From Candidatus Berkelbacteria bacterium (GTDB taxonomy: Bacteria; Patescibacteriota; UBA1384; JAGVHQ01): 32,577 bases of DNA. Both the position numbers and the translations under genes were made by a program. Below the pieces are notes generated by a model, which was not told the origin of the DNA, did not search any database, and saw only the letters and a program-made list of their open reading frames with translations. The DNA is taken from positions 1-32,577 of the forward strand of contig JAGVHQ010000027.1 in NCBI GenBank assembly GCA_020056565.1, in the 5' to 3' direction. This document shows, in pieces, positions 7,248-10,960 of the stretch (position 1 is its first letter; each line of letters starts with the position of its first letter).

Positions 7248-8048
7248 CTACCTCAACTCTTCCATTCGCCCGAGAACTCGAGCGTATGCACTCAGTGTAG
7301 CGTTTTGAGGGCGACTCGTCAAGATCTCGGAGCCTTTTTGGGTAACCAAAATCGTATGTTCGAAATGGGCGGCACGTTTCCCATCGGCAGTTCTGACTGT
7401 CCATCCATCGGGGTCAGTCACAACGTGCCAATCACCCAGGGTAACCATCGGTTCGATTGCTAATGCCATTCCAGCGTTCAAGATTGGGCCGGTTCCTCGT
7501 TCGCCAAAGTTCAGGATTCGGGGTTCCATTTGGAGTTCTGGTCCAATTCCGTGTCCACAGAGATCTCGGACGATCCCGAGGTGTGCTTTTGTGATCACCT
7601 GCGCAATCGCAGCCTGTACGTCACCAAGATGAACTCCGTCGCGTACCTGTGCTATCCCTGCCATGAGAGCTGATTCTGTCACCTTAAGAAGTTGTGAATC
7701 TTGCGCATCTCTTACACCAATTATTATCGTGTGAGCAGAGTCAACATACACGCCTTCGTCTTTCACTCCGATATCGATTCCAAGGACATCACCAGTTCGA
7801 ATGCGTTCATTATTTGGAATTCCATGTACCAGGGCATCATTGAGCGAAAGACAAGTCGCGTAACGGTACCCTTTGTAATTTAGGAATGCAGCCTTAACAC
7901 GGGCTTGCTTGATTCGCTCGTAGGCGAATGCGTCCAAAGCGGCGAGGGTAATACCGGGTTTTGCGGCCTGAGCGGTAAGGGCGAGTACCCATCCTAAAAG
8001 TGGGCCGATTCTGCGCATTGTATGGATTTGTTTTTCGTTCAGTTTCAT
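7248..8048 (-). CDS. map: Type I methionine aminopeptidase
   Basis: 266 residues from the ATG at 8048 (TGATG overlap with adk); a GTG one codon upstream is possible. The enzyme removes N-terminal Met from nascent proteins after deformylation. The pita-bread active site is complete: H75 (VHGIP), metal ligands D92 and D103 (IDIGVKDEGVYVDSAHT), H166 (LCGHGIG), E199 (AIEPM) and E230 (HFEHTIL). There is no N-terminal zinc-finger extension, so it is the short bacterial type Ia form. The adk-map-infA order is typical of many bacteria, here with the exported-protein gene placed before adk. Confidence 0.96.
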   Translation of the reverse strand: MKLNEKQIHTMRRIGPLLGWVLALTAQAAKPGITLAALDAFAYERIKQARVKAAFLNYKGYRYATCLSLNDALVHGIPNNERIRTGDVLGIDIGVKDEGVYVDSAHTIIIGVRDAQDSQLLKVTESALMAGIAQVRDGVHLGDVQAAIAQVITKAHLGIVRDLCGHGIGPELQMEPRILNFGERGTGPILNAGMALAIEPMVTLGDWHVVTDPDGWTVRTADGKRAAHFEHTILVTQKGSEILTSRPQNATLSAYARVLGRMEELR

Positions 8049-8707
8049 CACTGCTTCTTTTTTAGAAATGCATTGACCGTGGTTAGTAAAGATTGTGTTA
8101 CCTCATCAATTGACGGGGTGCCGTCAACGGATATCAAGCGATTCTGCGCTCGGTAATGGTCGATTACCGGGAGTGTTTGTCGACGAAAGATGTCAAGCCG
8201 TTTTTGGATTGATTGTTCGGTGTCGTCGTGACGGACAACGAGGGTTCCGCCACATTTTTTACAGAGTATTTCAGATTTCTGATCCGAAGTTGGGGCTGTG
8301 ATTGTAGCTACTCGTTTGCAATTTGAACAAATCCGACGGTTTTCGATCCGTTCTAAAGATATCTTTTCGGGCAGCGTAATATACACCGCGAATGGCTCTG
8401 CCCCATTATATTTTTTCAGAAGAAAGTTGAAGTCGTTGTATTGTCGCATGTCACGGGGGAATCCATCAAAAACTATTCCATCAGCTTGATGTTTTTTAAA
8501 GTAGTCTTCCATTAAGCGGAAAATGAATCCGTCTGGGATGAGTTTTCCCATCGAAAGCAGCTGTTCGATTTCGGGGTCACGGTGAGTGCGGGCAAATTCT
8601 CGTAGTACGTCTCCCGTAGAAAAGACTCGACAGTCAAAATGCTTCGCAAGTAGCTGAGCCTGTGTTCCCTTACCGCTTCCTTGTGGGCCAAATAAGACGA
8701 TATTCAT
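8048..8707 (-). CDS. adk: Adenylate kinase with zinc LID
   Basis: 219 residues. It interconverts ATP + AMP and 2 ADP in the cytoplasm. The P-loop is GPQGSGKGTQ (7-16), with Q and S where most have P and A. STGDVLRE (30-37) and DGFPRDMRQ (81-89) form the AMP site. The LID domain carries C127-x2-C130 and C149-x2-C152, a structural zinc site as in Gram-positive enzymes, and RHDDTEQSIQKRL follows. The start overlaps the upstream gene as ATGA. Overall length and motifs are those of the long bacterial Adk. Confidence 0.97.
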   Translation of the reverse strand: MNIVLFGPQGSGKGTQAQLLAKHFDCRVFSTGDVLREFARTHRDPEIEQLLSMGKLIPDGFIFRLMEDYFKKHQADGIVFDGFPRDMRQYNDFNFLLKKYNGAEPFAVYITLPEKISLERIENRRICSNCKRVATITAPTSDQKSEILCKKCGGTLVVRHDDTEQSIQKRLDIFRRQTLPVIDHYRAQNRLISVDGTPSIDEVTQSLLTTVNAFLKKKQ

Positions 8708-9687
8708 TGCGCGGCAAGAATAGAAGTCCCCGACCCGAGAGCGGAGTTGTTGAGGAAAAGGGTGGGATGTGTGCCGTCTTGGGCATGACTAATACTAAGG
8801 AGGCCATTTGGGGTCTCATATGCATCGGTGAGAATACGATCAAATTCACCATAGTCTTTCAAGCGCTGCCCAGTTGGGGAGAAAACCGAAACACCTGTTT
8901 TGACATCCGACAACTTGAAGGCCACGAGAATGCGTTCGCCAGAAACTCGCAGTGCGCGGATTGGTTGAGTAAACGTTCCAACTATTACTGGATCCCCTGG
9001 CTCTGCTGAAACTCGCTTGAGTAGGTACTGGGAATCGTGGGGTGCAACGTAGTAGACTGTTTTCCCGTCTTGGGCCCACTGGGGAAGAAGAATCCCCTCT
9101 TTTTCCTTTGCGAGCGTAGAGGGCCCATCGGTGCTGAATGAATTCTTCATGAGAGTAAATGACGCACCTTCATTTGTTTGATCAAATTGTACCTTTAGAT
9201 AGGCGCTCCGGTCCGGCGATACACTTGGTGGCTGGGTGGAAGGAACTGATTCAGCAAGAACTGTCGCTTGTGCGTTACTCTGTCTAGGAAATTGGACTAA
9301 ATCAACAACAGCTCCCGCGAAATCCGAGTTTTCTCGCGCGCGGGTGACAACTAATAATTCTGAATTAGAATAGACAACATCCACATAGCCGTTCCCTGGG
9401 CCACGGGTGAGAATCTCAGAATTCTTTTTTGTAAGGTTGTAGGCGATAACTTCTCCGGTTGGGGCCGAGAACACATAAACAATTTGTTCAACCGGCGCTT
9501 TCTCAGATTGCGTTGTGCTCACGGGTGATTGGGGACTCTCCTGCGTTGGATTAGATGGGGATTCTATGGCGTTTGTGTCAGTTTCGGCGGCAGGCTTTGT
9601 TGTATCGGCACGAACGACTAAATATCCAAAACTAGCCAGCAGCAGAAAAAAAATCACTGTTGAAAATGTTTGTCGTGCGCGTTTCAT
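8704..9687 (-). CDS. Exported beta-propeller-like protein of unknown function
   Basis: 327 residues with no family I can name firmly. The N-terminus has a basic n-region (KRAR) and a hydrophobic stretch at about 9-25, ending VVRA-DT, which could be a signal-peptidase I site or an uncleaved anchor; there is no lipobox Cys. A Ser/Thr/Pro/Glu/Gln-rich linker spans about 28-66. The rest reads as repeated beta strands, with PD40/TolB-like turns at PPSVSPDRSAYLKV (153-166) and PQWAQDGKTVYYV (202-214) and a similar VFSPTGQRL at 268. It is therefore probably a partial propeller outside the membrane. It starts 1 nt after secY and overlaps adk by 4 nt. This slot in the spc operon normally has no gene. 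Confidence 0.75.
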   Translation of the reverse strand: MKRARQTFSTVIFFLLLASFGYLVVRADTTKPAAETDTNAIESPSNPTQESPQSPVSTTQSEKAPVEQIVYVFSAPTGEVIAYNLTKKNSEILTRGPGNGYVDVVYSNSELLVVTRARENSDFAGAVVDLVQFPRQSNAQATVLAESVPSTQPPSVSPDRSAYLKVQFDQTNEGASFTLMKNSFSTDGPSTLAKEKEGILLPQWAQDGKTVYYVAPHDSQYLLKRVSAEPGDPVIVGTFTQPIRALRVSGERILVAFKLSDVKTGVSVFSPTGQRLKDYGEFDRILTDAYETPNGLLSISHAQDGTHPTLFLNNSALGSGTSILAAQ

Positions 9688-9688
9688 C

Positions 9689-10960
9689 CTAGGAGAACGT
9701 ATCGTATGTGCGCATTACCACCTGTGCCTTGATGCTGCGGGTGGTCTCAATAATAACGGAGACTAAAATAAGAATGCTTGTTCCGCCCAGTACCAATGTC
9801 TGAATTTTTGTAAGGGACTGTACGATGAACGGTAAAACAGCCACGAGAGCAATAAATAGTCCTCCCAGGGTAGTGATACGAATAAGTGTTGTGCGTAGAT
9901 ATGATGACGTTTCGTTTCCGGGTCGGATGCCAGGAATAAACCCCCCTTGTTTTTGGAGGTTCTCCGCGACTTGGGGCGGCTGGAAGACAACAAATGTATA
10001 GAAAAATGTGAATGCGAAGACAAGTATGAAATACAAGACCCCATATACAATCTGATTTTCCAAGATGCGGGTGAGTGCATTCGCAGCATTCGCGATCCAC
10101 TCTGTTTTAGCTAACGCAAAGAAGCGGGCGATCACTGTGGGGAAAATCAGCATAGAAAGGGCAAAAATGATCGGAATGACCCCGGCGGAATTAACCTTTA
10201 GAGGAATGTGAGTATTTACACCTGCCCAACTTCGTTGCCCCCTTACCCGCCGGGCATAGGTTACAGGAATTTGACGTTCACCTTGCGTAATAAATACAAT
10301 TGCCGCGACCGTTAGAATGCCGATTGCAGCAAATACAAGTAAGCCGAAAATCTTTCCAGTATCTACAACCGCTAATGTGTTACGTACTTGGGTCGGAAGG
10401 CCAGAAACGATACCAAGCGCAATTAACATAGAGATTCCATTGCCAACCCCGTTTTCAGAGATGATCTCTCCAAGCCACATCAAAAGCATTGTTGTGGCAG
10501 TTGTAACAGCGAGCATTGTGGCGATCTGAATCCCATCCCATTCCGGTAGGATCCCTTGCTGGCGGAACAAAAGTAATGTCCCTATTCCCTGTAAAATTGC
10601 CATTGGGACAGTTAATAGGCGCGTGTATTGGGTCAATTTTTTGCGGCCAAACTCCCCTTCTTTCTGGAGCGCTTCTAATGAGGGAACAACGTACCCCATA
10701 AGCTGTACGACAATCGAAGCCGTAATGTAGGGTCCAACGCCCATGAGCATAATTGAGAAGTTACTTAATGTCCCACCCGAGAAGAGATCGAGTAATCCAA
10801 AAAGTTGGTTTTGGGAGAAAAACTGAGAAAGCTGGCGAATATCAACGCCCGGCAGAGGAACATGTGCAATAAAACGGGTCAAGATAAGAATCCCAATCGT
10901 TAAGAGGGCTTTGGTTCGTAGATCAGGTAAACGCCAGATTTTTATCAGGAAATTGAACAT
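9689..10960 (-). CDS. secY: Preprotein translocase subunit SecY
   Basis: 423 residues with about ten membrane spans. SecY forms the protein-conducting channel with SecE and SecG. Signatures are the first SecY motif region LDLFSGGTLSNFSIMLMGVG with PYITASIVVQLM, the EGEFGRKKLTQYTR loop, EIISENGVGNGISM, and the cytoplasmic C5-loop-like QGERQIPVTYARRVRGQR that SecA and the ribosome contact, with HIPLKVNSAGVIPIIFA after it. The C-terminal NLQKQGGFIPGIRPG segment is intact. No Shine-Dalgarno is visible before the ATG, which lies 2 nt after the nitroreductase stop, so initiation is probably coupled. The usual rplO-secY junction is interrupted by that gene. Confidence 0.97.
   Translation of the reverse strand: MFNFLIKIWRLPDLRTKALLTIGILILTRFIAHVPLPGVDIRQLSQFFSQNQLFGLLDLFSGGTLSNFSIMLMGVGPYITASIVVQLMGYVVPSLEALQKEGEFGRKKLTQYTRLLTVPMAILQGIGTLLLFRQQGILPEWDGIQIATMLAVTTATTMLLMWLGEIISENGVGNGISMLIALGIVSGLPTQVRNTLAVVDTGKIFGLLVFAAIGILTVAAIVFITQGERQIPVTYARRVRGQRSWAGVNTHIPLKVNSAGVIPIIFALSMLIFPTVIARFFALAKTEWIANAANALTRILENQIVYGVLYFILVFAFTFFYTFVVFQPPQVAENLQKQGGFIPGIRPGNETSSYLRTTLIRITTLGGLFIALVAVLPFIVQSLTKIQTLVLGGTSILILVSVIIETTRSIKAQVVMRTYDTFS

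Follow-up and report, generated by a model that had tools for sequence, protein, structure and literature searches.

The six-bladed PD40 propeller TolB belongs to the Tol-Pal system, and Gram-positive-type bacteria have envelope-anchored propellers of the LpqB type (Gmad1, PF10647); LpqB itself, a lipoprotein encoded in the mtrAB operon, contains a GerMN domain. Propellers of such type usually bind proteins or peptides by one of their faces. In E. coli, SecYEG is served from the outer face of the membrane by PpiD and YfgM, the genes of which are encoded away from secY. PpiD and YfgM are both type II proteins, N-in, with a single transmembrane (TM) segment and a soluble outer domain, and they form one functional unit at SecYEG (PMC9643414). 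Here we report that a gene for a predicted membrane-anchored beta-propeller lies between secY and adk in a Candidatus Berkelbacteria genome and that, as judged by profile searches and gene order, it belongs to a subfamily of PD40/TolB-type propellers that is specific to the lineage, syntenic, and unusual in its place within the operon. Our search of the open-access literature found no paper joining Berkelbacteria and secY, or secY, adk and a beta-propeller; as far as that literature goes, the propeller in this slot appears not to have been described earlier.

The window, i.e. the whole stretch of 32,577 nucleotides that was analysed, carries on its minus strand the genes rplO, a nitroreductase gene, secY, the propeller gene, adk, map and infA in this order (Table 1). 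The open reading frame of the initial annotation is present as described (327 amino acids, ATG start), and its 327 codons compare with a longest frame of 224 and a mean of 89 in 1000 mononucleotide shuffles of the stretch; the GC content at the gene does not depart from that of its surroundings. The junction with secY reads ...CTCC TAG G ATG AAA, that is the secY stop, a gap of one nucleotide and the start codon, while the junction with adk reads ...CGCAATGAATATC, in which the TGA stop and the adk ATG share four nucleotides. The coupling on both sides that had been claimed is thus borne out, and close junctions are kept in the relatives. Production at ribosomal-operon levels, which had been expected as well, is a prediction that follows from the position of the gene. 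We also note that the nitroreductase-family gene (PF00881; 10963-11595) is an insertion separating rplO from secY. Only distant relatives of it turned up in the class survey, none adjoining secY, and the insertion looks specific to the lineage of the window rather than a second class-wide insertion.

Table 1 Features of the propeller gene and its immediate neighbours in the window
Feature	Position	Strand	Remarks
Propeller gene (327 aa)	8704..9687	(-)	Predicted membrane-anchored PD40/TolB-type beta-propeller; ATG start
secY	9689..10960	(-)	Directly upstream, 1-nt gap; PF00344, E 5e-101
adk	8048..8707	(-)	Directly downstream, 4-nt overlap; PF00406, E 1e-30
Single N-terminal TM segment, aa 7-25	9613..9669	(-)	Hydrophobicity; helix 2-27 in the model
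Low-complexity linker, aa 27-67	9487..9609	(-)	66% S/T/P/E/Q; predicted disordered
Beta-propeller domain, aa 68-327	8707..9486	(-)	Predicted six-bladed from the model of a relative

A six-frame search of 60 relatives with the window protein as single query gave weak matches in six (E 1e-8 to 3e-4); five of these lie visibly between secY and adk, and in the sixth (G030) the gene is split over the ends of two contigs, with secY on one of them. For the class to which the window's genome belongs, the Berkelbacteria-type Patescibacteria, secY was located in 53 of 55 genomes and all open frames in the stretches downstream were searched with an iterated profile. The propeller family was found in 18 of these 53 genomes, representing 12 families, and every one of the genes is situated behind secY in the secY-adk slot, most of them starting between 14 nt before and 1 nt after the secY stop. 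None of 40 genomes of other classes carries the propeller or a slot-type LysM gene (see below) behind secY, and in most of them adk follows secY directly. Likewise, a search of 380 genomes of the phylum placed all matches covering most of the model within the class, those beyond it being partial and confined to the anchor or to stretches resembling PD40. A search with a six-row alignment recovered the Candidatus Berkelbacteria records JACQIO010000030, CAIRFN010000012 and JAGQLE010000009, one record labelled Nealsonbacteria (PCRM01000033) and two unplaced bins. The initial annotation held that the slot normally has no gene, which applies outside the class (0/40) but not inside it, where 31 of the 53 slots hold a propeller and/or a LysM gene; its anchored propeller and the coupling to secY and adk stand.

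That the gene might be an assembly join or a chance frame was considered, since the window's own family (f1) is a single genome in our set and the window protein alone has no family match. The same slot and family recur, however, in 17 other assemblies of different genera, the frame is far longer than those in the shuffles, and a leave-one-out profile built from the other 15 members gives the window protein 59.0 bits (47.8 bits without the TM part), the best of 2000 shuffles reaching 18.4. The same gene in the same slot in relatives, together with a profile score well above the shuffles, argues for a real gene; an assembly join is rejected by the synteny in 17 other genomes, and we consider the probability of either artefact negligible. 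Absence from close relatives, with signs of a join, had been named as grounds for doubting the gene; the relatives instead have it in the same slot in 12 families. By these comparisons the propeller gene is lineage-conserved and inherited. In one genome (G036) the propeller frame is broken (L016:186-1097): its N-terminal part contains a copy of the C-terminal coding sequence, apparently through misassembly or local duplication.

Two same-genus pairs gave dN/dS values of approximately 0.18 and 0.13 for the propeller, rough figures as dS is high and near saturation, compared with approximately 0.02-0.03 for secY in the same comparison. Roughly estimated, the propeller is under purifying selection in the relatives and evolves several times faster than secY.

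The N-terminal part of the window protein has one hydrophobic segment (mean KD 2.14) with three K/R and no acidic residues on its N side; a hydrophobicity scan found no second TM segment, no AxA cleavage motif was found after the first, and the protein has no Cys and hence no lipobox. The predicted topology is type II, N-in. The S/T/P/E/Q-rich linker noted earlier is confirmed by composition (66% over residues 27-67) and has a pLDDT below 40 over most of its length in the AlphaFold model of the window protein; it is followed by approximately 260 residues of predicted strands. This model (pLDDT 60.6) has strands throughout and is too poor for blade counting; its structure matches include propellers, but with TMq values of at most 0.39 and rmsd above 10 Å among the best 50.

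Evidence for the fold comes from the family. A profile of the 16 members matches TolB chains in the PDB with E 1.2e-18, and PD40 and TIGR02800 each match seven of the 16 members, while the window protein alone has no Pfam or NCBIfam match and no meaningful match among PDB sequences. The slot family is by profile one of PD40/TolB-type propellers, which the window protein joins through its family and not alone; the PD40-like strands claimed for it are accordingly upheld for the family profile and not for the single protein. The model of a relative (L095; seven-row alignment) has a pLDDT of 78.5 (core ≈90) and 23 strands, about six times four, and contains a confidently predicted closed propeller of four-stranded blades; its Foldseek neighbours in the PDB are TolB (E 1e-11, probability 1.0) and designed six-bladed propellers. 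By homology, the window protein is predicted to be six-bladed as well. The TM segment, the family profile and this model together support the exported, anchored beta-propeller that had been proposed. Judged by strand order and not by coordinates, blade 1 of the L095 model would be closed by the C-terminal strand, its motifs FTDADE (85-90) and FSNAEADFGF (158-167) would occupy a d-a and a b-c loop, respectively, and both loops would lie on one face of the propeller. Separately, the genome bin of the window has a 519-amino-acid protein with PD40 repeats (L090:329-1888) and, by our own reading of the sequence, an M23-peptidase-like half; it may mark its contig (C32) as a stray one in the bin.

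The motifs IFTDxDE and F[SN]NAExxFG are the best conserved of the family, and both are lost in the window protein, which has ILTRGPGN and FDQTNEGASF in their places. Members of f8, f9 (G008), f12 and f24 also lack one or both, so the motifs are a trend of the family and not its definition. Since the window protein is without both, its function may have drifted from that of the family.

With TolB as the closest solved fold and the best PDB sequence-profile match, one might think of a TolB counterpart for monoderm cells that works with an energised motor in the inner membrane and a partner resembling Pal, but we regard this as very improbable: TolB_N is not found among the families matched by the 16 members, the N-terminal TM anchor is without a cleavage motif, and the OmpA/Pal domain (PF00691) is present in 0/14 propeller-bearing genomes, control genomes being positive. 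TolB proper was rejected on the missing TolB_N and Pal/OmpA.

A second gene recurs in the slot. The propeller occurs alone in 13 of the 53 slots, a LysM protein alone in 13, both in five and neither in 22; the LysM protein is thus present in 18 of the 53 class genomes, and where both occur the order is always secY-propeller-LysM-adk (n=5). The LysM slot protein is anchored, with a stalk and one LysM domain (8/8 members), and most end in a C-terminal domain of approximately 95 residues that has no Pfam or PDB family match. Outside the class this domain forms the end of larger anchored proteins. It is fused behind a clear PD40 propeller in two genomes of family f68 (G149 and G110) and follows an anchored strand-rich ectodomain, to which no Pfam propeller model matches, in G176 (f82). 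What most speaks for a link between the propeller and the LysM protein is the f68 fusion; as it is confined to one lineage, it is a hint and no proof. The genome of the window (91% complete) has no detectable LysM domain anywhere, so the pair would not be obligatory.

The SecY tree, whose root was not inferred, requires at least six changes for the propeller and at least seven for the LysM gene, both of which occur on several deep branches; this fits an ancestral propeller/LysM pair with repeated loss. Propeller and SecY distances agree weakly (Spearman 0.25, p 0.12; one row per family), and horizontal transfer of slot genes is possible as an alternative to loss.

The slot has other variants. 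In G009 a third slot gene separates the LysM gene from adk (L014:1740-2270); its product is an anchored Ig-like protein (Big_5). An anchored S/T/P-rich protein is found in the slot at L013. Families f4 and f5 have an F420-ligase-like gene as cargo: in G003 adk is one frame with an F420-ligase-like domain (L041:1306-2715; PF01996 E 2e-9, ADK E 2e-30), and a comparable ligase-like gene stands on its own between secY and adk in f5, the sister family (L018). The map gene lies directly behind secY or the propeller, with no adk in the stretch, in f12, f20, f25 and G029, where adk seems to have been lost or moved (stretches without adk: L042, L044, L051, L054, L055, L056 and L057). Finally, two other-class genomes have tandem adk-like frames behind secY (L115, L131).

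We read the slot propeller as an envelope scaffold made alongside SecY, an interpretation to which we assign even odds (approximately 0.5). Early in a Berkelbacteria-type lineage, an envelope gene would have entered the ribosomal-protein operon between secY and adk and been kept there since. The propeller would be translated right after SecY and inserted through Sec by its N-terminal helix, N-in and C-out, so that the six-bladed propeller might be held by the disordered stalk within the cell wall or outside it, one face being a putative docking platform for a partner, either a protein or a wall polymer. In several living families, and probably also in the ancestor, its neighbour would be the second anchored protein with a LysM and the new C-terminal domain. 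LysM domains bind peptidoglycan (PMC4083421), and the two proteins together could form a wall-tethered scaffold for envelope assembly. Counting against this reading, the LysM partner is separable, 13 genomes having the propeller alone and 13 the LysM gene alone; the poor model of the window protein, its lost motifs and the weak agreement of propeller and SecY distances also weigh against it. In the window's genome, where the LysM partner was not detected, the propeller would have a different partner or none.

The variety of the cargo (propeller, LysM, Ig-like, S/T/P-rich and ligase-like) is what one would see if the slot offered unrelated envelope genes a site that is convenient and strongly expressed, and if the propeller were functionally unconnected with SecY, Adk and the LysM protein. 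We think this unlikely, though worth keeping in mind; the same two families recur across the class in one order, and the C-terminal domain of the LysM protein is elsewhere fused to a PD40 propeller.

Of the roles that the initial annotation suggested, contact with a host found no support in these comparisons, and a partner of the Sec channel is possible by analogy. As an accessory of the translocon, the anchored propeller would sit at the SecYEG exit and, like PpiD and YfgM, receive or guide proteins being exported. In agreement with this, the gene strictly adjoins secY in 12 families, with frames mostly overlapping or touching, the topology is shared, and there are two anchored slot proteins, as in the PpiD/YfgM pair. 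However, many class members keep secY without the gene, both slot genes being missing from 22 of 53 slots; Pfam searches of the 16 members found no PPIase, TPR or SurA-like domains; and the products of the operon neighbours adk, map and infA are not known to bind SecY. We consider an accessory of this kind rather doubtful, and more improbable still that the propeller and the LysM protein form a lineage-specific outer-face subunit of the translocon in Berkelbacteria-type CPR, which would couple protein exit to the cell wall and replace the usual exit chaperones.

The secY-adk junction ranks among the best conserved of bacterial gene junctions, and the genomes of CPR bacteria are small; that an envelope gene has been kept there in many families suggests a core role in the poorly known CPR cell envelope. 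The propeller/LysM pair, the undescribed C-terminal domain and the propeller fusion are concrete candidates for CPR envelope factors.

In comparison with the known systems, PpiD and YfgM are likewise type II and outer-face and provide the model for serving SecYEG, but have no sequence or fold relation to the slot propeller. The LpqB-type propeller is also envelope-anchored, and Gmad1 gives weak matches in three of the 16 members (best E 9.6e-4); LpqB is a lipoprotein, whereas the window protein has no lipobox. As to PD40 (PF07676), by our own reading the slot motif SPxGxxIxxxxFSNAExxFGFxL sits at the SPDGxxIxFxS...IY hairpin, the slot family having a longer b-c hairpin loop and a conserved acidic motif, and the window copy being too diverged for Pfam. 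TolB comes nearest, in solved fold and in profile match (TIGR02800). It differs in that the slot propeller has a TM helix and a linker in the place of TolB_N, occurs in genomes without Pal/OmpA, and is encoded in the secY operon rather than with tol-pal.
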